Assembly (NCBI GenBank): GCA_026713105.1
Contig: JAPOPC010000055.1
Location: forward strand, 1 to 64,000
Length of the DNA: 64,000 bases
DNA from: Acidimicrobiaceae bacterium
Lineage (GTDB): Bacteria; Actinomycetota; Acidimicrobiia; Acidimicrobiales; Poriferisodalaceae
Reading direction: 5' to 3'
A program made the translations under genes and the position numbers. Each line of letters begins with the position of its first letter. Position 1 is the stretch's first letter. Below, piece by piece: positions 3,871 to 40,292 of this stretch. The notes below the pieces were generated by a model. The model did no database searches, was not told the origin of the DNA, and worked only from the letters and a program-made list of their open reading frames with translations.

Positions 3871-3881
3871 GCGGCCAAGGT

Positions 3882-5141: not shown

Positions 5142-5249
5142 GAGGACTACCCAGGGTTCGGAAATGCGACCCGCACAGTCTCGCCGGTCCGGCACCCCGT
5201 TTCCACGCGCTTGACCCAGGTTTGCGCCACGAGTGTGACTCCGGGGCGC

Positions 5250-5339
5250 TCAATTGAAGAAGAACAGCAGCCTGAGGGTGGCCGCGAGCAAGATGAGTGC
5301 GACGAGCGCGGCCAGTACGAGCGCAGTTCGAGGTCTCAT
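5250..5339 (-). CDS. Putative 29-residue single-pass membrane peptide
   Basis: A short frame between the SAM hydrolase and hemA encodes a basic N-terminus (MRPRTA) followed by one hydrophobic segment (LVLAALVALILLAATL) and a tail of RLLFFFN. It starts 9 bp after the SAM-hydrolase stop. No strong Shine-Dalgarno sequence is visible. Composition is what a small membrane peptide would look like, but a frame this short can arise by chance; function unknown. Confidence 0.3.
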   Translation of the reverse strand: MRPRTALVLAALVALILLAATLRLLFFFN

Positions 5340-5348
5340 GTCACCGTC

Positions 5349-6173: not shown

Positions 6174-6204
6174 CGTTGTTCGCCCGCCCTCGTCCCGATT
6201 CTGA

Positions 6205-6996
6205 TCACGCTGCGCCGAGTTCGGCGGATCGGCGGGTAGCGGCTTCGATAGCCGCAGCGAATGCAGCGCGCACACCGTGACGTTCCAGCTCGCGAAGCCC
6301 GGCTGCGGTGGTGCCGCCGGGCGATGTCACATCGGCTCGCAGATCGGCAGGCGAACGCCCTTCGGCCAGCAATGTCGCTGAGCCGAGCAAGGTCTGGATG
6401 GCCAGTTCGGTAGCCACGGGACGGCTCAGACCCATGAGGACGCCCGCTTCGATCATCGCCTCGGCCACGAGGAAGACATACGCCGGACCCGATCCTGACA
6501 AACCAGTCACAGCGTCCATCAGGTGCTCAGAAACGCGCGCGACCTTGCCGACCGACCCGAGGATCTCGCTGGCCCAGTCGAGGTCGGCATCGGAGGCGTG
6601 CTCGTTCGCGCAGATGGCCGCCGCCCCTTCCGACACCAGCGCGGGCGTGTTGGGCATGGCGCGCACGATGGGAGTGCCGCTGCGGGCCGCGCCGCCCAGC
6701 GTTGCGAGCGTCACACCTGCGGCAATGGAGAGGATGCGGTCGGTGCCGGCCGCGGTGACAGCAGACGCAACAGTCGGGATCACGTCGGGCTTGGTCGCCA
6801 GGATGGCACCCGCCGAGGCCGCGATTTCGTCCGTGACGGCGACGCCATAGCGGTCTGCCAGCTCATCGCGGCGGGCGGGAATCGGCTCTGAGACGCAGAT
6901 GCTCTGGGCATTGCGGCCCGCGGCGAGCAATCCGCCCAGCAGCGCTTCGCCCATCTTGCCGCCGCCGACGATCAGCAGATCGATCCTCTCAGCCAT
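6205..6996 (-). CDS. proC: Pyrroline-5-carboxylate reductase
   Basis: NAD(P)H-dependent last step of proline synthesis. The 263-residue protein starts MAERIDLLIVGGGKMGEALL with the Rossmann GxGxMGxA pattern (GGGKMGEA), and carries the C-terminal signature region with GLSGSGPAYVF (about residues 159-169) and VTSPGGTTAAGL (about 226-237), both diagnostic. ATG at 6996 is used rather than the longer frame to 7053. A perfect 14-bp inverted repeat lies 48 bp upstream of the start. ProC also lies close to hem genes and mshA in mycobacteria. Confidence 0.96.
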   Translation of the reverse strand: MAERIDLLIVGGGKMGEALLGGLLAAGRNAQSICVSEPIPARRDELADRYGVAVTDEIAASAGAILATKPDVIPTVASAVTAAGTDRILSIAAGVTLATLGGAARSGTPIVRAMPNTPALVSEGAAAICANEHASDADLDWASEILGSVGKVARVSEHLMDAVTGLSGSGPAYVFLVAEAMIEAGVLMGLSRPVATELAIQTLLGSATLLAEGRSPADLRADVTSPGGTTAAGLRELERHGVRAAFAAAIEAATRRSAELGAA

Positions 6997-7043
6997 GCGG
7001 TCACGGTACCGGACGGCATCGGGACCCCTGCTGAGCAGGCGGT

Positions 7044-7107
7044 GCCGGGGCACTCGCAGTCAGTGAGTGGAGCACTTCCCTGCATGCCTGCTGGCGAGTG
7101 CCCCGGC
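7044..7107. repeat. 14-bp perfect inverted repeat between YbjN gene and proC
   Basis: GCCGGGGCACTCGC at 7044-7057 is the exact reverse complement of 7094-7107, separated by 36 bp. The structure lies in the 163-bp gap between the YbjN-like gene and proC. It lacks a T-run, so it is either a hairpin that slows or stops transcription or an unlisted palindromic element. Confidence 0.6.
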
Positions 7108-7159
7108 GAACGCCAAATCAATCAGAAAACTATGAAAGACATCAAATGGTTTTCGGGAT

Positions 7160-7636
7160 CTACTTCTGGAAGCCCAGCCGGACGAGCGTCGTGAAGTCAC
7201 GCTCGATGTACGCCCAAAGCGACCCGACAATCCGGTCCATCTCGTCCTCGTCGACGCAGTGGGTAGGCAGTTCTCCCGTCACATACAGCGCATCCTCGGG
7301 ACCGACGCCGTACTGGGCACCCACCAGCGAGTAGTTGCGTCGCAGAACGAAATCGGCGACCTGATCTGCTCGAAGCTGCGGGGCCGGAAGAACGTAGGAC
7401 TCATAGGCCAGCGTGCGTTGGCGCAGCGTCAACCAGATGGCGATGACATCGCGGGATTCCCCTGCAAGACGCACGTACCAGCGGCGCGGCACCTCGGAGT
7501 CTCGGGTCACGTCCAGCAGCATCGGTCGTTCATCGGGAGCGCCTTGAGACTGTGAGCGAGCCCATTCGGCCAGCCAGTCGTCCATGCGGGCCTCGAGCTG
7601 ATCGAGCTCGGCGGCGGTTGCCGGGCGACGAGTCAT
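7160..7636 (-). CDS. YbjN-domain protein
   Basis: Starting at ATG 7636 the protein has 158 residues. It has the YbjN-like arrangement: an N-terminal helix, a segment RRWYVRLAGESRDVIAIWLTL (residues 51-71) forming the first strands, the strand/loop YESYVLPAPQ, and LRRNYSLVGAQYGVG with DALYVTGELP typical of the fold. YbjN proteins resemble secretion chaperones but have no proven activity here. It lies 19 bp after mshA on the same strand; in mycobacteria (Rv0486-Rv0487) the same pair is adjacent, so an accessory role in mycothiol metabolism is possible but unproved. Confidence 0.8.
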   Translation of the reverse strand: MTRRPATAAELDQLEARMDDWLAEWARSQSQGAPDERPMLLDVTRDSEVPRRWYVRLAGESRDVIAIWLTLRQRTLAYESYVLPAPQLRADQVADFVLRRNYSLVGAQYGVGPEDALYVTGELPTHCVDEDEMDRIVGSLWAYIERDFTTLVRLGFQK

Positions 7637-7655
7637 GGTGCTGCCGACCCAAGAT

Positions 7656-8927
7656 TCACAGGCAAGCGACAAGCTCTCGTCGGCCCGCGGCGTCGAGCAC
7701 GTCCAGTGCTGCTGCCGCGCTCGCGCGCCAGCTATAGCGCTCGGCGCGGCGAGAGCCGGCGTCGCCGAGGCGCAGCGCCAGCAGCGGATCGGTGAGAATG
7801 TCGGTGACGCGGCGGGCGTACGCCTCGCCGCTGCGGCCAGCGATGAGGTAGCCGGTGCGTCCCTCGACAACGTTGTCGCGCAATCCCCCGACGTCTGACG
7901 CGACGACCGGTGTCCCGCACGCCGCGGCCTCCAGAGCGACCAGTCCGAACGACTCGGATCGGCTCGGCACCAGGCACACATCAGCGGCCCGGTAATAGGT
8001 CGACAGCAGGTGGTGCGGGAGAGGATCGACGAACTGCACACAGTCCGAGACCGCCAGATCGTCGGCCATATGCCCCAGCCGGGCGAGCGTCTCGTGACCT
8101 TGCGGACCGCTGGGCCCTCCCACGATGACGAGCTGCGCGTTGGCGCCCGCTGGGCCCCCAGCTCTCGTGGCGGCGAGGGTCTCGATCGCCAATTCGGCGC
8201 CCTTGAGCGGCTGCAACCGTCCGACAAACAGCAGCACCGGTCCGGGCGGAAGCCCGATGGCCGCGCGCGCGGCGTGTCGCTGACCTGGCGCGAACATGGC
8301 GCGGTCCACGCCGGGTGTCAGCACGTGAACTCGTTCTGGCGGTACGTCGTACAGCGATCTGAGCTGGCCCGCCTCCGCGTCTCCCGAGGTGAACACGGCG
8401 TCCGCACAATCGATGACACGCTGCTCGGCCTCGCCGCGGTGGCGCGGCTCGGCCTCACCGATGCTCGCCTTGACTCGGCCCAGCGTGTGAAAGGTGACGG
8501 CCAGCGGGACATCGAGGCGGTGCTTCAGCTCGTGTCCCGCCAGGCCGCTCAACCAGTAGTGAGCGTGGATTGCGTCGACTGGCCGCCGAACTAGGTGCTC
8601 GCCGACCCGATCAGCAAACGCTGCGACGACCGCGAGCAGGTCATTCTTGTCGAGCGATGGAGCACCGGCGTCGACGTGGGTGACGCTCAGCCCCGACTCG
8701 ACTTCGATGTGGTCCGGTTGCGATGGATCGGTGCGACGGGTGTAGATGTCGCAATCGACCCCAAGATGGGCCAGCGCGGCGGTGAGCTCGCGCACGTACA
8801 CGTTCAAGCCGCCGCCGTCGCCGCTGCCTGGCTGGTGGAGCGGCGAGGTGTGCATGCACAGCACCGCAACTCTCGTGACGCGACCAGGTTCGCCCGGCAT
8901 CTGAAGATCGGGAGCATCGGGGGTCAC
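7656..8927 (-). CDS. mshA: MshA-type D-inositol-3-phosphate glycosyltransferase
   Basis: GT4-type glycosyltransferase (423 aa, GT-B fold) that in actinobacteria transfers GlcNAc from UDP-GlcNAc to inositol-3-phosphate, the first step of mycothiol synthesis. Seen here: CMHTSPLHQPGSGDGGGLNVYV (glycine-rich UDP-sugar loop, residues 24-45), HAHYWLSGLAG (120-130), VGRLQPLKGAE (about 240) with the basic donor-site residues, and the ESFGLVALEAAACGTPVV E-x7-E motif (about 330). GTG at 8927 lies 8 nt after a TAGCGT -10 box. Other MSH genes are not in the window. Sucrose-phosphate-synthase-like GT4 enzymes are the main alternative, but the YbjN neighbour supports MshA. Confidence 0.85.
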   Translation of the reverse strand: MTPDAPDLQMPGEPGRVTRVAVLCMHTSPLHQPGSGDGGGLNVYVRELTAALAHLGVDCDIYTRRTDPSQPDHIEVESGLSVTHVDAGAPSLDKNDLLAVVAAFADRVGEHLVRRPVDAIHAHYWLSGLAGHELKHRLDVPLAVTFHTLGRVKASIGEAEPRHRGEAEQRVIDCADAVFTSGDAEAGQLRSLYDVPPERVHVLTPGVDRAMFAPGQRHAARAAIGLPPGPVLLFVGRLQPLKGAELAIETLAATRAGGPAGANAQLVIVGGPSGPQGHETLARLGHMADDLAVSDCVQFVDPLPHHLLSTYYRAADVCLVPSRSESFGLVALEAAACGTPVVASDVGGLRDNVVEGRTGYLIAGRSGEAYARRVTDILTDPLLALRLGDAGSRRAERYSWRASAAAALDVLDAAGRRELVACL

Positions 8928-8935
8928 GGCCGATA

Positions 8936-8941
8936 ACGCTA
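8936..8941 (-). promoter_or_regulatory. -10 box for mshA
   Basis: TAGCGT on the minus strand, 8 nt upstream of the mshA GTG, the same arrangement as other leaderless genes in the window. Confidence 0.5.
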
Positions 8942-8973
8942 CGCAGATCGCCGGAAAAGCACGAACTCAGCGA

Positions 8974-9975
8974 TCAGACATTGAGCAGACCCAAGCCCCA
9001 CATCCACACCAGCGCCGTGACGCTGAGCGAATCGATCCTGCGCACGGCCCACTCCCCCCTCAGGCGCTGCAGCGCTCGATGGGCTCCGCCGGCGAGCCGT
9101 GACTCGCTGCGGCCGACGGCTGATGGGCTCGCAGCATCGGCCCCATCCCGCAGTCGCTCCTGGGGTCGTGCGGCGAGCGCGGTGTTCGTTCGGGCGACGG
9201 CAGGGCCGAGCGGCAGCGTCACCGCAGCGAGCAGGCCAAACCTGATGACGTCGGTGGGCGCGAAGGGCGGCACGCTCAAACCGGTCAGCGCAAAGATCGC
9301 GATGCCGGCTGCGACCACCCCGGCCAGGGGGCCCCGCACACTCGGCGGCCGACCCGCCGCGCTGAGGTGATTGCCAGCGTCGTAGATCGCCGCCGCGCTC
9401 ACGAGTACGAGTGCCGCGCCGAGCGAGTAGCGGGCGACCGCCGCCGCACACGCAGCGGTGACGCCGACCTGCATCCACGTGCGGACCAGCAGTCCCGCAC
9501 GGGCCAGGAATGGCGATGGGGACGAGTGATCTGCGGACGGTGTGTTGGTGCCGGAGCGGCCGGGTTTCAAGGCACCGACCACGATGAAGCTGGCCACAAC
9601 GGCTGCGCCGAGCACGGCTCCTGCCAAGCGGGTGTCGAGGACGCCCGCGAACCCGACTGCACCGGCCAACGCGGCCGCCGGCAGCCGATAACTCGGGTGC
9701 AGCGTGGGCTGTGCGGACGCCCCGCCGGCGCCCGGCGAAGAACGTGGCGCATCGGTACTGCTGCGAACGCTTGCGGCTTGCCAAGCTCCCACCATGGCGA
9801 TCGCCGTCATGGTGAGCCCGAATGTCAAGGCTCCCGCCCACAGCGCACCGATCAGCACCCCGAACCAGATCAACCCAGCACTGATGGTGGCATCGCCCAA
9901 CGCGACCGCCGGCCCAATCCACAGCACTGCTGCGGGGAGTGACGCCGGTCTGAGACCCGGCGACGCTGCCACCAT
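8974..9975 (-). CDS. Multi-pass membrane protein, function unknown
   Basis: The 333-residue protein has about eight hydrophobic segments, among them AVLWIGPAVALGDATISAGL and VLIGALWAGALTFGLTMTAI at the N-terminus and LAGVVAAGIAIFALTG later. Between them is a Ser/Pro/Gly-rich loop (residues 70-95). A D-A-G-N-H-L segment followed by a hydrophobic helix faintly recalls membrane CDP-alcohol or cytidylyltransferase-like proteins, but I would not name it on that. It starts 11 bp after moaD and is probably cotranscribed with it. A larger overlapping frame at 8939-9922 is a shadow. Confidence 0.7.
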   Translation of the reverse strand: MVAASPGLRPASLPAAVLWIGPAVALGDATISAGLIWFGVLIGALWAGALTFGLTMTAIAMVGAWQAASVRSSTDAPRSSPGAGGASAQPTLHPSYRLPAAALAGAVGFAGVLDTRLAGAVLGAAVVASFIVVGALKPGRSGTNTPSADHSSPSPFLARAGLLVRTWMQVGVTAACAAAVARYSLGAALVLVSAAAIYDAGNHLSAAGRPPSVRGPLAGVVAAGIAIFALTGLSVPPFAPTDVIRFGLLAAVTLPLGPAVARTNTALAARPQERLRDGADAASPSAVGRSESRLAGGAHRALQRLRGEWAVRRIDSLSVTALVWMWGLGLLNV

Positions 9976-27495: not shown

Positions 27496-27882
27496 TCAAC
27501 AGCTTGGGTTGGGGCTGAGATCGCAGCCTGCGGGGTCGGTCCAGAACACCATCGAGGTGCCCATTGCCGCGTAGACGGCGACGGCGAGCACCAATCCCCC
27601 GACGAAGAGCCATGTGAAGAGCTTGTTGTCGAAACGCAGGTGCATGAAGTACGCCACCACGATCTCGAACTTGACGACCATCAAGATCAGCAGCATCGGA
27701 ACTTCGAGCGGGCCGACTTTGTCGTCGAAGAAGTAGATCAAGACCTCGGCAGCCGTCAGCACCGCCAGCAGCAGTGCAACCTTGATGTAGCCGAAATCGC
27801 TCAGGCCATGGTCATGATCGTCGTGAGCGTCGTCGAGTTCGTCGTGAAGCTCTTCAGGGGCGGTCTCGGTGGCGGTACTCAT
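27496..27882 (-). CDS. ctaF: Cytochrome c oxidase subunit IV (CtaF/CyoD type)
   Basis: A 128-residue accessory subunit of the caa3 oxidase. After an acidic, His-rich N-terminus (DDAHDDHDHGL, residues 18-28) it has three transmembrane helices: YIKVALLLAVLTAAEVLIYF, VPMLLILMVVKFEIVVAYFM (containing FEIVVAYFMHL, the COX4-pro signature) and LFVGGLVLAVAVYAAMGTSM. It is the last gene of the operon, 10 bp after ctaE, and is followed by a hairpin terminator. Its exact contact in the complex is unknown here. Confidence 0.88.
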   Translation of the reverse strand: MSTATETAPEELHDELDDAHDDHDHGLSDFGYIKVALLLAVLTAAEVLIYFFDDKVGPLEVPMLLILMVVKFEIVVAYFMHLRFDNKLFTWLFVGGLVLAVAVYAAMGTSMVFWTDPAGCDLSPNPSC

Positions 27883-27892
27883 CGATCTCCCC

Positions 27893-28573
27893 CTACGGAA
27901 TCAGGTACACGACCGCGAAGATCACGATCCAGACGATGTCGACGAAGTGCCAGTACAGGCCGATGATCTCGACGGTCTCGGCCCGCTCAGTGCCGATGAT
28001 CCCTCGATTCACCATCACCCACAGCGTGACCAGCATGATGATGCCCAGCGACACATGGACGCCGTGGAAGCCGGTCAAGGTGTAGAACGCCGACGACGAG
28101 ATGCTGACGGTGTATCCGAGGCCTTCGCGGTAGAAGCTCGTGAACTCATACACCTGCCCGGCGATGAACACAGCGCCCTGGGCGGCGGTGGTCAGCAGCC
28201 ACAGCTTGCAGCGCTCCATCTCGCCACGGGAGATCGCCGACACGGCCAGCACCATGGTGAGCGAGCTCATCAGCAGCACAAACGAGCTCACCGAGGTGAA
28301 CGGGATGTCGAACAGATCGGCCGCCCTCAGCGACTCTTCGCCGGAAAGCGGCTGACGGTTGCGCAGCAGCAGGTACGTCGAGATCAGCGCGCCGAACAGC
28401 AGGCAATCTGAGCCCAGGAAGGCCCACATCGTCATCTTCTCGTTGGACAGGCTCGTCGTGGGCGGGACGATCTCGTAGTCGTCCCACTCCGTACGTGGGT
28501 AGGCGGCCGGCGGCTCGTCGTCCTCGACCGGCTCGGCGGCGGCTGTGCTGGAGGCCGTCGGGGTATCAGTCAC
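27893..28573 (-). CDS. ctaE: Cytochrome c oxidase subunit III
   Basis: 226-residue membrane subunit with the five-helix form typical of caa3 oxidases (no N-terminal two helices). Seen: MWAFLGSDCLLFGALISTYL (about 49-68), the acidic residue region EFTSFYREG, and FHGVHVSLGIIMLVTLWVMV with the family GFHGxHV motif; the C-terminus ends in IVFAVVYLIP. Stabilises subunit I. Overlaps ctaD by 8 bp and precedes ctaF by 10 bp. Confidence 0.95.
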   Translation of the reverse strand: MTDTPTASSTAAAEPVEDDEPPAAYPRTEWDDYEIVPPTTSLSNEKMTMWAFLGSDCLLFGALISTYLLLRNRQPLSGEESLRAADLFDIPFTSVSSFVLLMSSLTMVLAVSAISRGEMERCKLWLLTTAAQGAVFIAGQVYEFTSFYREGLGYTVSISSSAFYTLTGFHGVHVSLGIIMLVTLWVMVNRGIIGTERAETVEIIGLYWHFVDIVWIVIFAVVYLIP

Positions 28574-30647
28574 CGGCGGCCTCCCCGTTTCCAGTGCTGG
28601 AAGTCAACACGCCGTTGCCGTCGTCGTGGCCGTTGGGCCCGCCGTCATGATCGTCATCGTGGGCCCCGTCACCATGGTCCCCGTCATCGTGACCGTGGCC
28701 GTGGCCCGCGTCGGGATCGGTTGCCGGCTCGAGCGTCCAGCCGAACATCGAGCCGACCAGCAGCAACAGTCCGATGCCGGCGATCCACAGGTTGTAGATC
28801 AGCCCGAATCCGATGAGCGGCAGGCCTACTGCCAACACGATCGGCCAGTACGACGGCGATGGCAGGTGGGGGTGCTGGTCGCCGCGCTGGGCGATGTCGT
28901 TGCCGTTGGCAATCCGCCGCAGCTTGCCGTTCTCGTCGGGCTGGTACTTCTTGTGCCAGAAGTCGTCGACATCGGTCACCACCGGCACGTAGTCGAAGTT
29001 GTGCTCAGGCGCCGGCGAGGGAATCGCCCACTCCAGCGTGCGGCCGTCCCACGGGTCTGCTTCGGCCTGCGGCTCGAGACCCCGGCGATATCGGCCCCAC
29101 GTCCGGAAGATGTTGACGGCCAAGATCGTCATGGCGATGAACATGAAGAAGTAGCCGATCGTGGCGATCTTGTTCCAGAACTCGAAACCGTCGAACTCGC
29201 CGTACACGCTGTGGCGGCGAGCCATGCCCTGCAAGCCGACGATGTGCATCGGGCCGAACGTGATGTTGAAGCCCAAGAGCATGAGCCAGAAATGCCAGCG
29301 GCCGAGCCGGTCGTTCAAGTGGTAGCCGAACGCCTTGGGCCACCAGTAATAGATGCCGGCGAACATGCCCATGAGAGCGCCGCCGACAAGCACGTAATGG
29401 AAGTGCGCCACGATGAAATACGTGTCGGTCTGCTGCGTGTCTGCAGGCGCGATCGCGTGCATGACGCCTGACAGGCCGCCGATGGTGAACATCGAGACCA
29501 GCGACACCGAGAACATCATCGGCACCGTGAAGCGGACTTTGCCGGCCCACATGGTCGCGATCCAGTTCAGGATCTTCACACCTGTAGGCACCGCAATGAA
29601 CATGGTCGTCGCCGAGAATGCCGCCACCGATACCGGTCCCATGCCGGCGGTGAACATGTGGTGGGCCCACACGCCCCAGCCCATGAAGCCGATCGCGGCG
29701 CCCGACAGGACCACGATCGGGTAGCCAAACAGCGGCTTGCGGCTGAACACCGGCAGCGTCTCAGACACGACGCCGAACGCTGGCAGGATCAGGATGTACA
29801 CCTCAGGGTGGCCGAATATCCAGAACAGGTGCTGCCACAGCAACGGATCGGCGCCCGCGTCCACGTTGAAGAAGTTCGAGTCGAAGGTGCGGTCGAAGGT
29901 CAGCAGCACCAGTGCCACGGTGATGACCGGCAGCGCGAACACCAGCAGGAACTGCACCACCAGGATCATCCAGGTGAAGACCGGCATGCGCAGCAGCGTC
30001 ATGCCCGGGCAACGCATGTTGATGATGGTCACGAGCAGATTCAGCGCACCCAGCAGCGAGGCGATACCGGCGATCTGCAGGCCCAGGGCGTAGAAGTCCA
30101 TGCCGTTGCTGGGGCTGAACGCCATCCCGGTGTTGGGCGCGTAGGCGAACCAGCCTCCGTCGGCGCCTCCGCCCAGGAACCAGCTCAAGTTCAGGAAGAT
30201 TCCGCCGAAGACGAAGATCCACAAACCCAGCGCGTTCATCCGCGGGAAAGCCACGTCCCGAGCGCCGATCTGCAGCGGCACGAGATAGTTGGCGAACGCA
30301 TTCGCCAGCGGCATGATCACCAGGAAGACCATCGTGACGCCGTGCATCGTGAAGAGCTGGTTGTACGCGTCGGCGCTCAGCACCTCGCCGTCGGGTGCCC
30401 ACAGCTGCAGGCGCACCAATCCGATCTCGATGCCGCCCACGAGGAACCAGAACAGCGCAGCAGCGCCGTACATGATCCCGATCTTCTTGTGGTCCACCGT
30501 GAAGAGCCACTCGCGCCAGCCCGTCGCGTGCGTGGGGCGGGCAAAGACGCCAGTACGCGGCGCTTCGTCGTGATCGGGGGCGCCGTCAGCCACCTCGAGC
30601 TCGGTGCTCGGCCCAGCGCTGTCCGGCTGATCGGTGATGATTGCCAT
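28566..30647 (-). CDS. ctaD: Cytochrome c oxidase subunit I
   Basis: Catalytic haem-copper subunit (693 aa, 12+ helices) reducing O2 to water and pumping protons. All ligands are present: MHGVTM (haem a His), FGHPEVYILILPAFG (CuB His, cross-linked Tyr), WAHHMFTAG (two CuB His) and AHFHYVL (haem a3 and a His). A C-terminal extension contains PSPSYWPIVLAVGLPLIGFG and two further helices (subunit-IV-like), then a His/Asp-rich tail (HGHGHDDGDHGDG, about 655 on). Haem A comes from CtaB/CtaA at 35147-37090. Overlaps ctaE by 8 bp. Confidence 0.98.
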   Translation of the reverse strand: MAIITDQPDSAGPSTELEVADGAPDHDEAPRTGVFARPTHATGWREWLFTVDHKKIGIMYGAAALFWFLVGGIEIGLVRLQLWAPDGEVLSADAYNQLFTMHGVTMVFLVIMPLANAFANYLVPLQIGARDVAFPRMNALGLWIFVFGGIFLNLSWFLGGGADGGWFAYAPNTGMAFSPSNGMDFYALGLQIAGIASLLGALNLLVTIINMRCPGMTLLRMPVFTWMILVVQFLLVFALPVITVALVLLTFDRTFDSNFFNVDAGADPLLWQHLFWIFGHPEVYILILPAFGVVSETLPVFSRKPLFGYPIVVLSGAAIGFMGWGVWAHHMFTAGMGPVSVAAFSATTMFIAVPTGVKILNWIATMWAGKVRFTVPMMFSVSLVSMFTIGGLSGVMHAIAPADTQQTDTYFIVAHFHYVLVGGALMGMFAGIYYWWPKAFGYHLNDRLGRWHFWLMLLGFNITFGPMHIVGLQGMARRHSVYGEFDGFEFWNKIATIGYFFMFIAMTILAVNIFRTWGRYRRGLEPQAEADPWDGRTLEWAIPSPAPEHNFDYVPVVTDVDDFWHKKYQPDENGKLRRIANGNDIAQRGDQHPHLPSPSYWPIVLAVGLPLIGFGLIYNLWIAGIGLLLLVGSMFGWTLEPATDPDAGHGHGHDDGDHGDGAHDDDHDGGPNGHDDGNGVLTSSTGNGEAAGD

Positions 30648-30682: not shown

Positions 30683-31846
30683 TCAGGGCAGCACCGGCGG
30701 GCTGCCGAGGGTCTTCAAATAGGCCATGAGATGGTCGAGATCCTGATCGGTCAAGACCTCCGAGAAGTCCAGCATGCCCTGCTGGTTGTCGGCACGAGCC
30801 GGCTTCATCTCGGGCGCATTGCGCACCCACTCGCGCATTTCGGCGATGTTGAGGACGAGGTTGCCGCCGGAATCTCGCAGGTACTCACCGTCGGGTCCTT
30901 GCAGGTAGGTCTCGTACAGCGCTCCGGCAAAGGCCGTGCGGCTCATGAGGTTGGTGAGATTCGGTGCGATGCCCGCGAGGAGGTTCGCATTGCCCCCCGC
31001 CGCGCTCTCGTACGTGCCGTCGACGACGTGGCAGCTGATGCAGTGGGTCTCGAACAGCGCCGCACCGGCAGCTTCGAGCGATCCTTCTGCGGGAGCCGTC
31101 TGCGCTGCAGCCTGGCCGCCTTCCTGCTCTTGCTTCCAGCGCTCGAAGTCCTCGTCAGCGAGCGCAATCGTCCGCATCTGCATGTTGGCATGGCTCAGGC
31201 CGCAGAACTCCACGCACTCGCCGTAGAAGATGCCCGGCTCGTCGGACCTGATCCGCCAATCGTGAACGCGGCCGGGCACGACATCCCGCTTGCCGTTGAG
31301 CTGGGGGATCCAGAACGAGTGGATGACATCGTTGGAGTGGAGTTCGAGGTTGACGTCTTCGCCGGTCGGGATCACCAAGTCATTCGCCGTGACGATCTCG
31401 TAGTGCCCGTCTTCGTCGAGGTCGTAGCTGAACTGCCACCACCACTGCTGGCCCTCGACCTTGATGGTGGGTCCGGCGCCCGCTTTGGCGAGATCGAACA
31501 CCACCGGCAATGTCCAGATGGTCAGGCCGACCAGCATCGCCGTCGGAATGAGTGTCCATGTGAGCTCGGCTTTACGGTTTCCGTGAATCTGCGGGGGCAG
31601 GTCGTCGGGGTCGTCGGTGGGCTTGGCCCGGAACTTCACGATGATCGTGGCAACCGCCGCGGCCACGAAGATGCCGACGCCCACCGCCATCCAGCCCGAC
31701 AGGCGCATGAGCCCGTCGATTTTCTGGGCTTCGGGGCCGACGGGCTTCGTCGCGTCGAGACGGCCCGTGGCACAGCCGGCGACGATCAGTCCCGCGAGCG
31801 CTACCGCCGCGACACGCCCGCATCGAGCGAAGCGGATGCCCATCAC
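30683..31846 (-). CDS. ctaC: Cytochrome c oxidase subunit II with cytochrome c domain
   Basis: Electron entry subunit (387 aa) of a caa3-type oxidase. Lipoprotein-type signal ends LAGLIVAGC (Cys25), two membrane helices follow, then the CuA domain with GQQWWWQFSYD and GECVEFCGLSHANM (about 213-226), and a C-terminal cytochrome c with the haem motif CISCH (about 270-274) and axial Met in the QQGMLDFS region. Start is GTG 31846 or ATG 31843, both overlapping the previous gene. Cytochrome c maturation needs the CcdA/thioredoxin pair at 16158-17928. Confidence 0.96.
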   Translation of the reverse strand: MMGIRFARCGRVAAVALAGLIVAGCATGRLDATKPVGPEAQKIDGLMRLSGWMAVGVGIFVAAAVATIIVKFRAKPTDDPDDLPPQIHGNRKAELTWTLIPTAMLVGLTIWTLPVVFDLAKAGAGPTIKVEGQQWWWQFSYDLDEDGHYEIVTANDLVIPTGEDVNLELHSNDVIHSFWIPQLNGKRDVVPGRVHDWRIRSDEPGIFYGECVEFCGLSHANMQMRTIALADEDFERWKQEQEGGQAAAQTAPAEGSLEAAGAALFETHCISCHVVDGTYESAAGGNANLLAGIAPNLTNLMSRTAFAGALYETYLQGPDGEYLRDSGGNLVLNIAEMREWVRNAPEMKPARADNQQGMLDFSEVLTDQDLDHLMAYLKTLGSPPVLP

Positions 31847-32632: not shown

Positions 32633-33253
32633 CTACTTCACCACGTACACGACGTACCAGGTGGCGGCCCACGCAAGCACGGCGAAGTCCCAAAAGAAGA
32701 CCGCTGAACCCAGCGGTGTCGAACGGTCGCGGCCCACGCTGCCGCCCAGCGAACGAAGCGTCATCAGGCCGAGATAGAACATCCCCACCATCACGATGGC
32801 CAGCGAGAGCCCGGTGACGGCGAACGCCAAGGTCGCCCATTCGCCCGAACCGATCTCGATCTCCATGCGGTTCAGGCTGAACATCACCATGTTGAAAAAG
32901 GCGAAGCCCATCACCAGGGTGAGGGCCATACCCACCCAGGTGTGGCCACGCTCGCCGCGGCCGCTTGCCCACACGGCCCAGTGGGCAGTGACGACAGAGA
33001 CTCCCAGGGTGATGAGCGCGTAGACGAGTTGCGGGTTTGGCACCGAATGGCCGGCGAGCCACTCGTGGCCGGGGTCGATGCCGGAGGCATGCCGGCGCGC
33101 CATGTAATGACCCAGCGCCCCTGCGACGGCCATGGCGCCGGCCGCGACGGCGAACCCGGTGCCGACGAGCTGGCTGCGCGGGCGCGGCGGCGGACCGGGG
33201 AGGTTGTAGCGGCCCGGCGGGGGGGCCTCGACGGTGCCGGTCGTGTCCGCCAT
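32633..33253 (-). CDS. Haem-copper oxidase subunit III-like protein
   Basis: 206 residues, Pro-rich N-terminus (residues 10-27), then about five helices: LVGTGFAVAAGAMAVAGALG, LVYALITLGVSVVTAHWAVW, HTWVGMALTLVMGFAFFNMV and TLAFAVTGLSLAIVMVGMFY, ending with FFWDFAVLAWAATWYVVYVV. The last pattern (FWDF at the start of the final helix) matches the subunit III C-terminal W-H-F-V-D helix, here without the His. Its ATG overlaps the stop of the preceding subunit-I-like gene by one base (TGATG). Confidence 0.75.
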   Translation of the reverse strand: MADTTGTVEAPPPGRYNLPGPPPRPRSQLVGTGFAVAAGAMAVAGALGHYMARRHASGIDPGHEWLAGHSVPNPQLVYALITLGVSVVTAHWAVWASGRGERGHTWVGMALTLVMGFAFFNMVMFSLNRMEIEIGSGEWATLAFAVTGLSLAIVMVGMFYLGLMTLRSLGGSVGRDRSTPLGSAVFFWDFAVLAWAATWYVVYVVK

Positions 33254-34989
33254 CAGGCCGGCACCTCGTGCGCGTCGCGATCGGCCGCAACGCCGCTGCC
33301 GTTGAGCCCATTGCCGTTGAACTCGGGGTCGAGCAGCGGAGTGCCGGAGGTGAGCTCCGGCAGGGTCTCCGAGGGCCCGAGCGGGGGCGGCGAGTCGAGC
33401 AGCCATTCTGGCGTCAGACCGCCCCACGGATCGGACTCGGCCGGGGCACCCTTGCCCATCGCCACAGAAATCAGGAGATTCAGCACGACGAGTGCCAAGC
33501 CTGCCAGCACGATGGCCACACCGACGGCACCGAGCGCGGAAAGGCCTTCGGCGCCGGAATCGTCGACCTGGCCGCTGTAGAGAGTCGTGAGCAGCGGCTC
33601 GCCGTACACGAATTGGGGCTGCTCGGTGAATGCGCCCGACAATGTCGGGCCGAGCCATGCCAGAAAGGCGCCCCCGCCGATGGCGGCGAGGCTGGCCCAC
33701 CCGGCAAGTTCGGACAGCCGCCGGCCCCAGATCTTGGGCGCCCACCAGTGCAGCGCCGCCAGCGCGCCCAGCAGCCCTGCGCCGTAGATGAGCAAGCTCT
33801 GCTGACCCGTGACCCAGGTGGTGAATCGCAGCGGTGCGTTCCCGTCGACGCCACGGCCCGCAATCTGCAGCCAGTCGACGCCCGCGCCCACCAGCCCGAC
33901 GAGCGCGGCGACGGCGATGAGCTGCCCGGCGGCGAATGCAGCCAGCACCGCGGTGCTGGGCCGCGGCCACGTGCGGCTCTGCCACACGGTGAAGCCCAAC
34001 AGCGCCAGCAATCCGGAGACTCCTGCGAGTGCTCCGGCGTACAGGCCGACCAGCACGATGCCCTCGAGTCCGTCGACAATGTCGGCGCCCTCATCGGTGA
34101 TGCCGAAGTTCGCCCACGCGCCGAACCCGAACAGCCCCACGAGTCCCATCGTGAAGTACAGCGCCAGCGGCTCGAACACCCAGCGGCGGGCGGCCGCCAG
34201 CATGATCTCGGCAATCACACCCAGTACCGGCACCACGTAGATGAACAGCTGCGGCGTGCGGTACATCCAGTCGATGCGAGACCAGATGCCGTAGTTGCCG
34301 CCCAGGAAGCGGGGGCCATAGCGGTGTTCGATGTAGAGAATGACGATCTGGCCGAGCACCACGCCGAGGCTGACGACCAGCATGGACGCCGTGACGAGCG
34401 CCGACCAGGCGAACGGGGGCGTGCGGTCCATGTACATGCCGGGCGCGCGCATCGTGAGCGTGGTGACGGCGACACAGATCGCGCCCGTCAGCAGCGATAT
34501 CACGAGCCCCGCGACGGCCAGCAGGTGCAGATCGACTCCGTCCGCGAAGCCGCCCCCTGGGCCGCCGTTGGCGGCGTAGGCCCCCACGAGCACGCCAGCC
34601 GATACCAGCCAGCCCCAGAACGACAGGGCGGCTGCCCGCCCGAAGGCCACGTTCGGCGCGCCGACCTGCAGCGGCACCACATAGATGGCAATGCCCAGGA
34701 ACAGCGGGATGAGCATGCCGAACACGAGGGCGTCGCGCGTGAAGGTGAAGACCTGCACGAACGAGTCGCCGTTGAGAACGGTGTGTCCGCCCGATGAGGT
34801 CAAGTCGAACCGGACCAGCAGGTCCGCGATCGCGCCGGCGAGGCCGAACAGCAACGAGCAGGCAATGAACAGCCGGCCGATGCGCTTGTGGTCGACCGTG
34901 TTGAGCCACCCGAACGCCGTCGGGTCTTCCACCGGTGCGGCGCCGGCAGATCCTCCCGAATACGTCGCTTCGGTCGTTGCGTCGGTCAT
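33253..34989 (-). CDS. Subunit I-like protein lacking all haem and copper ligands
   Basis: 578 residues from ATG 34989 (the frame to 35043 is a longer alternative). It follows the subunit I fold: TVDHKRIGRLF (31-41), YVVPLQVGAPNVAF (103-116), HWWAPKIWG (414-422), SDPWGGLTPEWL (519-530). Every ligand is replaced: MHG to FTRD region (Thr84), GHPEVY to RTPQLF (Thr245, Phe249), WAHH to WANF (Asn294, Phe295), AHFH to GQQS (Gln396, Ser398). It cannot bind haem a, haem a3 or CuB in the usual way. It heads a seven-gene operon that continues into ctaC-ctaD-ctaE-ctaF, so it may be a structural, assembly or proton-channel component. Confidence 0.85.
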   Translation of the reverse strand: MTDATTEATYSGGSAGAAPVEDPTAFGWLNTVDHKRIGRLFIACSLLFGLAGAIADLLVRFDLTSSGGHTVLNGDSFVQVFTFTRDALVFGMLIPLFLGIAIYVVPLQVGAPNVAFGRAAALSFWGWLVSAGVLVGAYAANGGPGGGFADGVDLHLLAVAGLVISLLTGAICVAVTTLTMRAPGMYMDRTPPFAWSALVTASMLVVSLGVVLGQIVILYIEHRYGPRFLGGNYGIWSRIDWMYRTPQLFIYVVPVLGVIAEIMLAAARRWVFEPLALYFTMGLVGLFGFGAWANFGITDEGADIVDGLEGIVLVGLYAGALAGVSGLLALLGFTVWQSRTWPRPSTAVLAAFAAGQLIAVAALVGLVGAGVDWLQIAGRGVDGNAPLRFTTWVTGQQSLLIYGAGLLGALAALHWWAPKIWGRRLSELAGWASLAAIGGGAFLAWLGPTLSGAFTEQPQFVYGEPLLTTLYSGQVDDSGAEGLSALGAVGVAIVLAGLALVVLNLLISVAMGKGAPAESDPWGGLTPEWLLDSPPPLGPSETLPELTSGTPLLDPEFNGNGLNGSGVAADRDAHEVPA

Positions 34990-35146: not shown

Positions 35147-36046
35147 TCACCAGCTGAGCCGAACGACGACGTCCACGGCCATGGCCGCGAACAGCAGCCC
35201 CAAGTACGCGATGGAGGTGTGAAAGACACGCATCGCGGTCGGGGGCGTCAGCGCACGCCACAACCTCACGAGCTGCCATCCAAACGCCGCTCCCCCGGCC
35301 AGCGCGACCGCCCAATACAGCCCGCCGGTACCGGCAGCCACCGCAAACCACAGCGACAGCGCGATCACCGCACCGGTGTGCACGGTCATCTGCACGAGCA
35401 CCGAGCGCTCGCTGGCAACCGAGGGCAGCATCGGCACCTCAGCAGCGTCGTAGTCCTCGGCGTAGCGGATCGCCAGCGCCCAGAAATGCGGCGGCGTCCA
35501 GAAGAAGACAATCGCGAACGCGATCCAGGCCTCGAGCGACAGCGTCCCGGTCACGGCCGCCCAGCCCACGAGCACCGGGGCCGCACCGGCTGCCCCGCCG
35601 ATGACGATGTTCTGAGCAGACGACCGCTTCAGCCACAGCGTGTACACGAACACGTAGAACAGGCACGCCGCCAGCGCAAGCGACGCCGCCAACAGATTGG
35701 CACCCCACCACAGAATCCCGAAGGCCGACACCTCGAGCACCACGCCGTAGATCAGCGCTGCGCGCGGCGTCACGGTGCCGACCACCAGCGGGCGGTGCGC
35801 GGTGCGCGCCATCGTCGCATCGATGTCGCGATCGATGTACATGTTGAAGGTGTTGGCACCCGCGGCGGACAGCGTGCCGCCGATGACGGTGAGCACCATC
35901 AGCGCCACGCTGGGCACGCCGCGCTCGGCCACGAACATCGGCGGCACCGTGGTCACCAGCAGCAGCTCGATGATGCGCGGCTTCGTGAGCGCGACGTATC
36001 CCCGCAATGTTGATCCACGCAGTGTTGGCCGCGGCGCCGCCAGCAT
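35147..36046 (-). CDS. ctaB: Protohaem IX farnesyltransferase (haem O synthase)
   Basis: Attaches a farnesyl group to haem B to give haem O. 299-residue UbiA-family membrane enzyme. The two Asp-rich motifs are visible: NTFNMYIDRDIDATMARTAH (about 66-85; DxxxD) and the second with YAEDYDAAEVPML (about 190-202). VALTKPRIIELLL starts the first helix. ATG 36046 is 7 nt from a TAGCCT box; the upstream frame to 36289 is antisense to ctaA. Divergent from ctaA. Confidence 0.96.
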   Translation of the reverse strand: MLAAPRPTLRGSTLRGYVALTKPRIIELLLVTTVPPMFVAERGVPSVALMVLTVIGGTLSAAGANTFNMYIDRDIDATMARTAHRPLVVGTVTPRAALIYGVVLEVSAFGILWWGANLLAASLALAACLFYVFVYTLWLKRSSAQNIVIGGAAGAAPVLVGWAAVTGTLSLEAWIAFAIVFFWTPPHFWALAIRYAEDYDAAEVPMLPSVASERSVLVQMTVHTGAVIALSLWFAVAAGTGGLYWAVALAGGAAFGWQLVRLWRALTPPTAMRVFHTSIAYLGLLFAAMAVDVVVRLSW

Positions 36047-36082: not shown

Positions 36083-37090
36083 GTGAGGTTGGATGACTCG
36101 TCGCGTCGGCACGAGCACAGGCTGTGTGTCACGCCCCAGCGGTTCGCCCTGATCGCGCGCTGGGCGCTGTGGTCGCTTGTGGCAATTGTCATCACCGGCT
36201 CGCTCGTACGGCTTACCGGAAGCGGCCTGGGATGCAGCGAATGGCCGAATTGCGAGCCCGGGGAATTCGTACCGGCGGCTGACTTTCATGGCTGGGTGGA
36301 GTTCGGCAATCGCATCGTGACCGGCCTGGTGTCGGTGGCCGTCGTCGTGGCAATCGGGGCGTCATGGTGGCGCCGGCCGCGCCGGAACGACTTGGTGTGG
36401 TGGTCACTGGGCCTGGTGGCCGGAGTGGTTTTCCAGATCGGGCTCGGCGCCGTCACCGTGCTGACTCACCTGTCTCCGCCAGTCGTGATGTCGCACTTCC
36501 TGGCGTCCCAGGTGTTGGTTGCAGCTGCGGTCGTCTTGGCGCATCGATCCGCTCGCGAACCGCTCACCAACGGCGACCGTGCGGCCGGATTGCCGGCGCA
36601 CATCCGTTCATTCACATGGCTCGCCGCGTCACTCACCGCAGCCGCCCTGTGGACCGGAACGGTGGTGACCGGAACAGGCCCCCACGGCGGCGACGAGCAC
36701 GTCGAACGCTTGCAATTCGCTCTGCCGTCAGTGGCACGCATTCACGGCATCACGGTCGTCGTGCTGGCCGCGGTCACGTTGCTGGGAGGCCTTGCAGTGC
36801 GACGCCTCGCCGCGACATCGGGCGCGGAGACGGTCAGCGCGGACGCCGCAATGCTGGGTCGGCGCATTCGGATCGTGATCGGCACCATGGCCATTCAGGC
36901 GGCGATCGGATACGTGCAGTACTTCAACGAATTGCCCGTGCTGCTGGTGGCCCTGCATGTCGTCGGCGCGACGCTGCTCACCATCGCCATGACGCGCATG
37001 GTGCTTGCGGCTGAGGCGGCTCACCGGGCGCCGCCAGGGTCCGAGGTTGGCGCATCGGTTGGCATCGCGGGCCGTGGCTTCGCAGAATGA
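36083..37090 (+). CDS. ctaA: Haem A synthase
   Basis: Oxidises the C8 methyl of haem O to the formyl group of haem A in the membrane. The 335-residue, eight-helix protein has [20 protein letters not shown] (41-60) with the paired cysteines, the haem-ligand region [13 protein letters not shown] (about 68-80), MSHFLASQV (about 136-144), then RIHGITVVV and LHVVGATLL in the second half. The C-terminus is hydrophilic. It stands divergently with ctaB and shares the 36-bp promoter gap. Confidence 0.95.
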
Positions 37091-37094
37091 GACT

Positions 37095-37463
37095 GTGAGC
37101 CAGACCGCTCCAGCTGTGTTGCTCCCGCTGGCGAATGCGCCAACGGTGTCGCCTCGCCTGGCGAACGCTCCAGCCGTGGCCGATCCTGAGGTCGTCCGCG
37201 ATCCGACCACCGAGGATTCCCACAGCACCGACGCTCCTTGGGTGGTCCTCGTGTGGAATGACCCGATCAACTTGATGAGCTATGTCGTGTATGTGTTCCA
37301 GAAGCTGTTCGGTTACAGCGAGGCCAAGGCCACCGAGCTGATGCTGGACGTACATCACAAGGGTCGCGCCGCTGTGGCCTGGGGCACGCGCGAGAAAGCC
37401 GAGCTCGACGTCTTCCGGCTCCACGAGTATGGACTGTGGGCCACCATGCAAAAGGATGACTGA
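37095..37463 (+). CDS. clpS: ATP-dependent Clp protease adaptor ClpS
   Basis: Delivers N-degron substrates to ClpAP/ClpC. Start GTG 37095 is 4 bp after ctaA and gives 122 residues: a repetitive Ala/Pro N-terminus ([20 protein letters not shown]) then the ClpS core [20 protein letters not shown] (about 50-69), [20 protein letters not shown] and [12 protein letters not shown]. The N-degron pocket (N-D-P-I/N, M, H in VHHKGRA) is intact. The longer frame from 37005 is in ctaA. Adjacent to DUF2017, a conserved actinobacterial pair. Confidence 0.95.
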
Positions 37464-37522
37464 GCGGTGCCCACTGCACCCCACAAGCGACGGCGTGACG
37501 GTCGGCTGATGGCGGCGGTCTC

Positions 37523-38011
37523 GTGAGCGGGACGCGGTTCGGAGCTCGGGGCTCGTTGGTGAGCGTGCACCTCGCCGATTGGGAGCGACGCCTGCTGGCC
37601 GAGATGGTGGCTGAGCTGCGATCCAATCTGCTCGACCACACACCGGCGCGCGACGGCGGCGACGGATTGGATCCCTCGCTGCGACGTCTCTTTCCACCGG
37701 CCTACTTGAGCGACCCCGACCGCGATGCGGAGTACCAGCGACTCATGCGCGACGAACTGCTGGTCGAACGCCTGGACCATCTCGATCTGCTCGACAGCAC
37801 TCTCGCCGCGGAACATCTCGACGATTCGCAGGTCACCGCCTGGATGCAGGGTCTGAACGAGCTGCGCCTCGTGCTCGGAACCCAGATCGATATCTCCGAG
37901 GAAGACGATCCCGCCGAGGTCGACCCGCAGGATCCGGCCCAACGACCACGGCTGCGCTACCACTACCTCGGCGGACTCCTCGCGGAACTCATCGACGCCG
38001 CGTACCGCTGA
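37523..38011 (+). CDS. DUF2017 (AosR-like) protein
   Basis: 162-residue helical protein of the family whose mycobacterial member AosR (Rv1332) adjoins clpS (Rv1331). Features: LADWERRLLAEMVAELRSNL (about 18-37), LRRLFPPAYLSDPDRDAEYQ and LDLLDSTLAAEHLDDSQVTA, with LRYHYLGGLLAELI at the end. AosR is reported as a redox-responsive partner of a sigma factor, based on a CXXXC pair; no such cysteines are present here, so a redox role cannot be carried over. Confidence 0.8.
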   Translation: MSGTRFGARGSLVSVHLADWERRLLAEMVAELRSNLLDHTPARDGGDGLDPSLRRLFPPAYLSDPDRDAEYQRLMRDELLVERLDHLDLLDSTLAAEHLDDSQVTAWMQGLNELRLVLGTQIDISEEDDPAEVDPQDPAQRPRLRYHYLGGLLAELIDAAYR

Positions 38012-38175: not shown

Positions 38176-39576
38176 TCAGTCGTGCTCGGCGAGCGGGAGA
38201 CGGAGTTCTACCGTGGTGCCCCCGCCGTCGGTGTCAATGACTGACGCAGTGCCTCCATGGGTGCGGGCCACGTAGTCGACGATGGACAGCCCGAGCCCGG
38301 AACCGGGCTGAGATCGGGCTTCAGGGGCGCGGTAGAACCGCTCGAAGACTGTCTCGCGCAGGGCTACGGGGATGCCCGGTCCGTAGTCGCGCACTCGGAC
38401 GTGAGCCTCCCGGTCTGCTGCCGCAACGCTGATCTCAATGGGTTCGCCGGGCGGCGACCACTTCACCGCGTTGTCGACGAGGTTGCCGATCGCTCGCTCG
38501 ACGAGGACCGCATTCGCCACTACCTCGCACGGCTCGATATCAGTCACGAAATCCGCCTCCGTCCGGCGGCGGTGCCGGTCCACCACCGATGCCGCCAGCT
38601 CAGCCAGATCGACTGGTTCGGGCTCGGCTTGGGATCGCTGGTCGGTCGCCAGCTCGACGAGCTCGCTCACCAACTCGGTGAGCTGATCCAGCTCGAACTG
38701 CACATCGTCGAGCATCTGGCGTCGCTCGTCACCGGCGAGTGCGACGGCCATATTTGTGCCGGCGGCACCAGACGTTGTTGCCGCCTCCGCTGGGGCTGCG
38801 GACTGTTCGGCGCGCGCCAGCAATTCGATGTTGGTGCGGATGCTGGTGAGCGGTGTCCGCAGCTCGTGGCCGGCGTCGGTGACCAACCGATGCTGCTGGG
38901 TGCGCGACTGCGCCAAGGCCTCGAGCATCGCATTGAAGCTGCGTGCCAATTCGCCGAGCTCGTCGTCGCGTTCGAGCTCGATGGGCTGTTCCAGGTCTTG
39001 AGTCTGCGCGACGTTGCGCGCCGCATCGGTGAGCCGCCGGACCGGCCGGATGGCACGGCCCGCCACCAGGAATCCCAGCAGCCCAGCTCCCGCTACACCG
39101 ATGACGGCAACCACCGCCAGCGCGTTGCGCAAGCCCTCCACATTCGCGTCCACCTCATCGAGCGGCCTCGCGACCATCAGCGCCCCAACCGGTGTTATCG
39201 GCACGGTCAGCACTCGCAGACGCACACCGTCGGCAGACACATCGGCGCGATGCGGTCGAGCCTGGCCATTCGCTACGGCAAGATCGGCGGGCCCCACTGG
39301 CAGCACCCCGTCAGACGCGTACATGACCGCGCCGTTCGGGGCCACGATCTGCGCGAGCACATCGCGAGGGACGAACCGTCCGAAGAACTGGACGCCGCGG
39401 CGTTCGGGCAAGCGTCCGCCGCTCGTCACCAGGACGGCAACGCGGTCGTCCAGCTGCTGGTCGAGTGCCGACCGGGCCTCTGTTCGGGCAATCCAGAGCG
39501 CGACACCCGAGATAGCCAGCACCGCGACGGCGACCGAAGCTGCCACCACCAGCCCGAGCCGGGTACGAAAGCTCAT
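38176..39576 (-). CDS. Sensor histidine kinase (PrrB/MprB-like)
   Basis: 466-residue membrane kinase. TM1 (LVVAASVAVAVLAISGVALW), an extracytoplasmic sensor of about 115 residues, TM2 (NALAVVAVIGVAGAGLLGFL, about 151-170), HAMP (IRPVRRLTDAARNVAQ), H-box VTDAGHELRTPLTSI with His237, N-box GNLVDNAVKWSP and G-box YGPGIPVALRE, GSGLGLSIV. A Gly/Ala insert (SAAPAEAATTSGAAG) sits between the dimer helices. Shares an ATGA with the response regulator. The stimulus is unknown. Confidence 0.93.
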   Translation of the reverse strand: MSFRTRLGLVVAASVAVAVLAISGVALWIARTEARSALDQQLDDRVAVLVTSGGRLPERRGVQFFGRFVPRDVLAQIVAPNGAVMYASDGVLPVGPADLAVANGQARPHRADVSADGVRLRVLTVPITPVGALMVARPLDEVDANVEGLRNALAVVAVIGVAGAGLLGFLVAGRAIRPVRRLTDAARNVAQTQDLEQPIELERDDELGELARSFNAMLEALAQSRTQQHRLVTDAGHELRTPLTSIRTNIELLARAEQSAAPAEAATTSGAAGTNMAVALAGDERRQMLDDVQFELDQLTELVSELVELATDQRSQAEPEPVDLAELAASVVDRHRRRTEADFVTDIEPCEVVANAVLVERAIGNLVDNAVKWSPPGEPIEISVAAADREAHVRVRDYGPGIPVALRETVFERFYRAPEARSQPGSGLGLSIVDYVARTHGGTASVIDTDGGGTTVELRLPLAEHD

Positions 39577-40292
39577 GCCGGTCTCATCACGTATCCCACG
39601 CCGCGCACGGTCCGGATCGGGCTGCGGCCGTCGGTGCCTGCTGCCGCAGCCGCCAGCTTGCGTCGCAAGTAGCCCACGTAGACCTCCAGGGAGTTGGAGG
39701 CCAGCGAGGCGTCGTAGCCCCACACCGTGTCGTAGATCTCGTCGCGGTGGAGCACGCGGCCAGGGTTGCGCAAGAACAGTTCCAGCAGCCGGTGTTCGGT
39801 ATGGGTCAGCTCGACAGATTCGCCAGCACAGCTCACCTCGTAGCTGGCGGTGTCCAGCACGATGCCTGCGCACGTGAGGCGCTCGCCCCCGTTAGTGGGG
39901 AGGGCCTCGGCGTTACGCCGCAGGAGCGCACGCAGCCGTGCGAGCAGCTCGTCGAGCGCGAACGGCTTCGCCAGGTAGTCGTCGGCGCCGGCATCGAGGC
40001 CCTCCACGCGGTCTGAGGTGGCGCCTCGGGCCGTCAGCAGCAGGATCGGCACGCGGCTCCCCGCTGCGCGCAGGCGACGGCACAGCTCGAATCCGCCCAG
40101 ATTCGGCATGGTGGCATCGAGCACCAACACGTCCGCCCGTCCGGCGAGCGCCTCGCCCTCGAGACCGTCGCGGCCTTCGAGCACCTCGTAGCCCTCAAGC
40201 TGCAGGGCGCGTCGCAAGGCGGCCCGGATGCGCTGATCATCGTCGATGACGGCGACTACGGGGCTGCTGCGGGGTGGTGGGTCGGCGCCCAT
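39573..40292 (-). CDS. OmpR-family response regulator
   Basis: 239 residues: receiver domain with VAVIDDDQRIRAAL (acid pocket), phospho-acceptor Asp59 in VLVLDATMPNLGG, the conserved K in DDYLAKPFALDELL, then a winged-helix DNA-binding domain ending with LEVYVGYLRRKL and IRTVRGVGYVMRP. It and the following kinase (ATGA overlap) resemble the PrrA-PrrB and MprA-MprB pairs. Targets are unknown; no binding sites could be identified. Confidence 0.95.
   Translation of the reverse strand: MGADPPPRSSPVVAVIDDDQRIRAALRRALQLEGYEVLEGRDGLEGEALAGRADVLVLDATMPNLGGFELCRRLRAAGSRVPILLLTARGATSDRVEGLDAGADDYLAKPFALDELLARLRALLRRNAEALPTNGGERLTCAGIVLDTASYEVSCAGESVELTHTEHRLLELFLRNPGRVLHRDEIYDTVWGYDASLASNSLEVYVGYLRRKLAAAAAGTDGRSPIRTVRGVGYVMRPA

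Follow-up and report, generated by a model that had tools for sequence, protein, structure and literature searches.

Most CydB proteins, which form one half of cytochrome bd, carry no haem. A 'deranged' COX1-like protein of Acetobacter is said, in the accessible part of its description, to lack all conserved metal-binding residues, to be clustered with ctaB and to be retained; the same part reports a loss of cytochrome oxidase in acetous taxa (PMC10715153). Here, a 64,000 nt stretch of DNA from an Acidimicrobiaceae bacterium (the window; positions 1 to 64,000 of contig JAPOPC010000055.1, assembly GCA_026713105.1), which lies on contig 38 of a 117-contig genome, is found to encode a COX1 paralogue without metal ligands, called I', at the start of a cytochrome oxidase gene cluster. 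Together with a subunit-III-like paralogue (III') and a protein with a subunit-IV-like domain (IV'), I' would form a redox-silent module, and we consider it about evenly balanced whether this module is a structural partner of the caa3 oxidase encoded in the same operon, and not an enzyme.

I' (P0001, 578 aa) occupies positions 33,253 to 34,989 on the minus strand, with its ATG at 34,989 and its stop codon ending at 33,253. It matches the Pfam COX1 family (PF00115; 145 bits, cut-off of 34.8) and is 26% identical to the window's CtaD across 574 alignment columns. The AlphaFold2 model of I', built from a 48-row alignment, has 12 long helices (predicted local distance difference test, pLDDT, of 83.9; predicted template modelling score, pTM, of 0.88). 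All 50 Protein Data Bank rows listed by Foldseek for this model come from haem-copper oxidases or respiratory supercomplexes, the best among them being 1qle_A (E = 1.5e-19, query template modelling score TMq = 0.74); the alignment of I' with CtaD is therefore not a product of chance, and the homology proposed by an earlier, sequence-only reading of this DNA is borne out.

In that alignment, CtaD residues H102, H280, H329, H330, H415 and H417 correspond to T84, T245, N294, F295, Q396 and S398 of I', and the cross-linked tyrosine Y284 corresponds to F249, exactly the replacements that had been named. I' lacks all known residues for oxygen chemistry, as had been claimed, and the loss is wider: the D-channel Asp and Asn, the helix VI Glu, the K-channel Lys and the haem-propionate Arg pair, as we take these positions to be, are also gone (now N, A, Q, L and Q/F). 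Against the NCBIfam equivalog model for cytochrome c oxidase subunit I (TIGR02891), I' scores 193 bits, under a strict cut-off of 670.75 that the live CtaD itself, with 669.1, falls just short of. Overall, I' has the fold of a catalytic subunit I and has neither its six histidines and tyrosine, nor its D- and K-channel residues, nor its equivalog score. The ligand states given here and below were read from automatic alignments, where single columns beside gaps (helix VII, in some rows) are uncertain; the sequences are metagenome-assembled genomes (MAGs) with reading frames taken from stop to stop, and related genomes are not independent.

I' is under purifying selection beside the live CtaD. 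In particular, across 45 pairs drawn from ten genomes of the genus, including the window, the median ratios of nonsynonymous to synonymous substitution (dN/dS; Nei-Gojobori counts from our own script) are 0.117 for I', 0.091 for III' and 0.113 for IV', and are 0.190 for ctaC, 0.106 for ctaD and 0.104 for ctaE. Moreover, among the matches of P0001 listed in 61 relative genomes, none has an internal stop. These data agree with the earlier observation that I' has kept its full length and an intact frame beside ctaD and, together with the gene's distribution, led to the rejection of pseudogene status.

The module is widespread. The IV' profile has matches in 187 of the 248 sampled genomes of the order Acidimicrobiales; 168 genomes from 33 families have strong matches (E of 3e-20 or better; hand count), and 19 matches are weak (E of 1.2e-8 or worse; hand count), of which G680, the one located on the profile, covers the IV-like half only. 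In a sample of the phylum, some match to IV' occurs in 101 of 296 genomes; of the matches listed, near-full coverage of the profile is confined to this order, and those outside it are partial, mostly to the anchor half or the IV-like half. The worry that relatives lack the gene and that it is decaying here is answered by the 168 genomes with strong matches, together with the low dN/dS and intact frames of I'.

An I' with a readable ligand set was found at 142 loci, which reduce to 137 distinct sequences after removal of five duplicate contigs. The fetched DNA includes a CtaD for 123 of the 142 loci, always on the same strand, with a median distance between the I' and CtaD starts of 4588 bp (range 2917 to 9719); by our own reading, most of the remaining 19 loci end before the expected place of ctaD, and L202 is uncertain. 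The helix VII pair of CuB histidines is kept in 0 of the 137 distinct sequences, and 99 keep none of the six histidines. The tight arrangement of I' with a subunit-III-like gene and ctaC to ctaF, first noted in the window, recurs with its ligand loss across much of the order. A search with a five-row alignment of the window's own family, which returned 79 loci, gave MAGs titled Acidimicrobiia, Acidimicrobiales and Microthrixaceae bacterium as its closest named relatives. Three loci titled Bifidobacterium breve, Acidobacteria and Candidatus Kapaibacterium (L082, L078 and L112) carry Acidimicrobiales-type paralogues and are probably mislabelled MAGs.

The paralogues share one origin, and I'-III'-IV' is an ancient module. 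In a tree of 83 proteins from which the ligand columns were excluded, the 63 sampled paralogues make up one side of a single branch, with a support of 100/100. Both haem a histidines are kept in 25 of the 133 distinct sequences with readable I' and IV' (26 of 140 by locus); most members of the deepest lineages keep this pair along with an IV' whose cupredoxin is intact, and elsewhere both are mostly lost. Among the paralogues nearest to the live CtaDs are family f34, whose three rows all have the haem a pair and the copper motif (placement support of only 95/67), and a 12-row clade with mostly Arg at the helix VI CuB position, in which nine rows keep the haem a pair and three have lost it. The tree requires six changes of the haem a pair and five of the cupredoxin. 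In the f34 loci L191 and L205 to L208, the unusual ligand set reads HYWSEQH or HYWSQVH and the cupredoxin motif of IV' is intact; these proteins are candidates for the biochemistry of a CuB-less haem a protein. Further, six loci (L033, L035, L036, L038, L181 and L184) retain the a3 histidine as well as the haem a pair and have Arg in place of the helix VI CuB ligand; this ligand set implies a haem with a possible distal arginine.

A ligand-poor CtaD (HQYSRQH) also occurs in a MAG titled Solirubrobacterales (L105:3951-6898), after a CtaC that, by our own reading of its sequence, no longer has the CuA cysteines; a second, complete ctaC-ctaD-ctaE set follows further along. A first tree had placed L105 at the base of the paralogue clade; this placement was rejected once the full-ligand CtaDs L151 to L153, its close relatives, were added, which nested it among the live CtaDs, and joining L105 to the Acidimicrobiales clade is rejected by the approximately unbiased test (p = 0.0003). 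Its ligand loss is therefore independent, and ligand loss of this kind has arisen more than once.

III' (P0002; 32,633 to 33,253, minus strand), whose start overlaps the I' stop, scores 27.4 bits against Pfam COX3 (cut-off of 23.8) and 38 bits against the actinobacterial CtaE model, far under its cut-off of 190. IV' (P0003; 31,843 to 32,625, minus strand) has seven long predicted helices. Its first half resembles the actinobacterial subunit IV (Pfam Cyt_c_ox_IV, below cut-off), its second half shares homology with the three-helix anchor of the cupredoxin proteins that other actinobacterial lineages encode after ctaF, and its C-terminus is, as in most lineages, a tail containing histidines. The structure model of this protein has low confidence (pTM of 0.53), and the top Foldseek row, chain H of the mycobacterial bcc:aa3 complex, is not significant (E = 0.25).

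In the deep lineages, IV' bears a cupredoxin with the copper motif C-x-x-H-x(2,3)-M, scoring above the Pfam Cupredoxin_1 cut-off in L030, L035, L036 and L038 and below it in L033. In family f7 and its kin, the IV' tail is similarly long, has no Pfam cupredoxin match or copper motif, and in our own reading is degenerate; in the window's family, the cupredoxin tail is gone. The copper motif is found in 15 of the 25 distinct sequences with the haem a pair versus 2 of the 108 without it; the association is not significant when relatedness is respected (five independent pairs, median sign-test p of 1), and the co-occurrence is attributed to relatedness. A rule that the cupredoxin occurs exactly where all three haem histidines are kept held at first in five of five loci and was refuted by later ones; the copper motif persists in L182, L183, L185 and L191 although their a3 histidine is gone, and in L201 and L204 although the haem a pair is absent. 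In our own reading, the cupredoxin and the haem a site are two redox centres that were inherited together and lost in most lineages; a functional link between them is offered as a suggestion. In loci L123 to L126, membrane-anchored cupredoxin proteins are encoded shortly after ctaF and are possible electron donors to the oxidase. Their three-helix anchor is like that of IV', and the junction in L125 and L124 is like the IV' tail; they differ from the window's IV', which no longer has the cupredoxin and begins with a subunit-IV-like domain, in having a cupredoxin or copper-binding domain recognised by Pfam.

The redox core of I' is relaxed, and its first five transmembrane (TM) segments and some loops are better retained. 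With helix limits taken from the I' model, the mean entropy of live CtaD is 0.76 in TM6-10 versus 1.08 in TM1-5, and the order is reversed in the paralogue (2.19 versus 1.89); the paralogue-minus-live difference is unequal between the two regions with p = 3.6e-8 (54 and 51 rows), the columns not being independent. The best-kept stretch of the paralogue is the loop after TM2 (entropy of 0.96), and in the C-terminal tail conservation falls only a little short of that in CtaD (1.75 versus 1.49); the sides of the membrane on which these loops lie are presumably those of the known COX1 topology. In known oxidases, helices III and IV of subunit I form the packing surface for subunit III, and the conservation pattern would fit a binding of III' to I' without a subunit II.

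On the minus strand, the genes run in the order I'-III'-IV'-ctaC-ctaD-ctaE-ctaF and overlap or nearly touch. The operon continues from IV' with ctaC (30,683 to 31,843; subunit II, COX2 and cytochrome c domains, CuA motif intact as read by eye), ctaD (28,566 to 30,647; live subunit I by Pfam and alignment, all seven residues present), ctaE (27,893 to 28,573; subunit III, Pfam) and ctaF (27,496 to 27,882; subunit IV, Pfam and NCBIfam). The live oxidase is of the caa3 type, because CtaC carries both a COX2 and a cytochrome c domain; further, ctaC is the sole subunit II of the operon, which therefore encodes no complete second oxidase. I' had been described as heading this operon, and it is the first gene of the tight run; however, the haem O synthase gene ctaB (35,147 to 36,040, minus strand; UbiA, 211 bits) lies just upstream on the same strand, its end 157 bp from the I' ATG. 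The haem A synthase gene ctaA (36,083 to 37,090, plus strand; COX15-CtaA, 83 bits) is divergent, and a ClpS adaptor gene and a DUF2017 gene follow it (37,005 to 38,011, plus strand). A two-component pair, a response regulator with a Trans_reg_C domain and a HAMP histidine kinase, lies near the cluster (38,176 to 40,292, minus strand).

In the structural-partner reading, which has the best support, I', III' and IV' would together make up a membrane module that has no redox centres and would serve the caa3 oxidase as a stabiliser, a dimer half or a supercomplex docking piece; such a scaffold role would fit. The module would have arisen by duplication, with CuB lost at the outset, the early module may still have moved electrons from the cupredoxin on IV' to haem a in I', and electron use would then have been abandoned in most lineages, including this genome, leaving the scaffold. 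We infer the partnership from the shared operon, the selection on the module, the presence of just one subunit II gene in the operon, and a weak covariation of branch rates (123 branches, 15 pairs, partial values: 0.31 for I'-ctaD, 0.30 for I'-IV' and 0.32 for III'-IV'). Several observations weigh against it. The covariation test is weak, with the known partners ctaD and ctaE reaching only 0.11; every TM segment is less conserved in the paralogue than in CtaD, so that segments are 'kept' only in relative terms; and a separate complex or an assembly factor would account for the operon evidence equally well. The linkage is not absolute, as L025 has the module and no recognised ctaC or ctaD in 13.6 kb, and 80 of the 248 genomes of the order (about one third) have no strong IV' match. 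The four of these whose COX1 locus was read (L128 to L131) have no IV' match and a full-ligand CtaD of another type, which clusters with the CtaDs of Rhodococcus and Streptomyces; the module is therefore not needed for aerobic life in the order. In a bolder form, which we put forward as tentative and somewhat doubtful, the module would descend from an undescribed respiratory complex, a CuB-less and CuA-less relative of the haem-copper oxidases in which a cupredoxin carried by its own subunit IV donates electrons to haem a and which survives in deep Acidimicrobiales; most descendants, this genome included, would have no redox centre left, and their shell would be a permanent non-catalytic half of the caa3 oxidase, the counterpart of CydA/CydB.

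The main rival to the structural-partner reading is a dedicated assembly factor, in which I' (with III' and IV') would mimic CtaD so as to bind CtaA/CtaB, a haem donor or a nascent subunit during maturation, and would be absent from the final oxidase. The position of I' between ctaB and ctaC-ctaD and the histidine-containing IV' tail of most lineages speak for this role, as does the Acetobacter ligand-less COX1-like gene, likewise clustered with ctaB, for which the accessible part of the paper proposes CtaB stabilisation (PMC10715153). We nevertheless judge it unlikely: the usual assembly factors Caa3_CtaG and SURF1 are both present in the genome, so neither of those roles needs filling, the whole I'-III'-IV' set seems more than a chaperone needs, and related taxa with the other CtaD type live without the module. 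Still less probable is a separate membrane complex that is merely co-regulated with the oxidase and has a non-redox task of its own, such as small-molecule or ion passage, or a lipid or sensor function. A polar pocket is hinted at by a Gln that recurs where the helix VI ligand and the first helix VII ligand used to stand (31 and 39 of 55 rows, a residue set that includes the independent case L105), and residues more conserved in the paralogues than in CtaD (among them R39, G99, G143, G146, L154, L387, R423, S548 and P551) could serve such a task; however, the window protein lacks the Gln pair (T245 and N294), the former pocket in TM6-10 is less conserved than TM1-5, and the linkage to ctaC-ctaF is kept in most loci. 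The sequence-only reading had also offered a repurposed proton channel of the oxidase supercomplex. This option would make use of the retained COX1 fold; it is very improbable as far as the canonical residues go, the K-channel Lys being present in 0, the D-channel Asp in 1 and the helix VI Glu in 3 of the 55 rows, and a proton path through other residues is conceivable. Least credible, to the point of being negligible, is a decaying relic of a duplicated oxidase: every catalytic residue is lost and I' evolves faster than CtaD (total tree lengths of 39.4 and 16.1), but its dN/dS never exceeds 0.20 in the 45 pairs, the listed matches have uninterrupted frames, and the module has persisted with III' and IV' in 33 families.

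No paper on this Acidimicrobiales paralogue was found in the open-access literature, most subscription journals lying outside the search, and the accessible parts of PMC8239418, PMC4013037 and PMC9145763 do not mention it. A ligand-less COX1-like protein has a precedent in Acetobacter, as far as the accessible part of that paper describes it (PMC10715153); the present family is broader and keeps intermediates. As far as the searches show, the following is new within the open-access literature: I' coexists with a live CtaD, it is accompanied by paralogous III' and IV', its age is order-wide, and intermediates survive. The family offers a natural series in the disarming of a respiratory core, from CuB-less proteins that still bear haem and cupredoxin to proteins with no metal ligand, kept by selection over an order. 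The series makes it possible to test how structural and catalytic tasks are divided among the parts of subunit I, whether dead paralogues are partners of bacterial oxidases, and what a haem a protein does without a binuclear centre. It is also a warning for annotation, as many COX1-family matches in Acidimicrobiales cannot reduce oxygen.

Compared to the known systems, I' shares with CtaD/COX1, the A-type haem-copper oxidase subunit I, the 12-helix fold, the full length, conserved loops and the C-terminal DPWxGxTxEW..SPPP; unlike CtaD/COX1, the window's I' has no metal ligands, D- or K-channel residues or propionate arginines, and its redox core is relaxed. Its likeness to CydB, according to the accessible part of PMC8951039, is that CydB has the same fold as its catalytic partner CydA and is kept as the other half of cytochrome bd; the two families are unrelated, and CydB is an established subunit, whereas the partnership of I' is inferred. 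The Acetobacter protein, compared by its description only and from the accessible part of PMC10715153, is like I' in being COX1-like, in having lost all metal ligands, in lying near ctaB and in being retained. In contrast to the Acetobacter case, I' shares its operon with a live ctaD, is accompanied by the paralogous III' and IV', and belongs to an ancient, order-wide family with haem a and cupredoxin intermediates.
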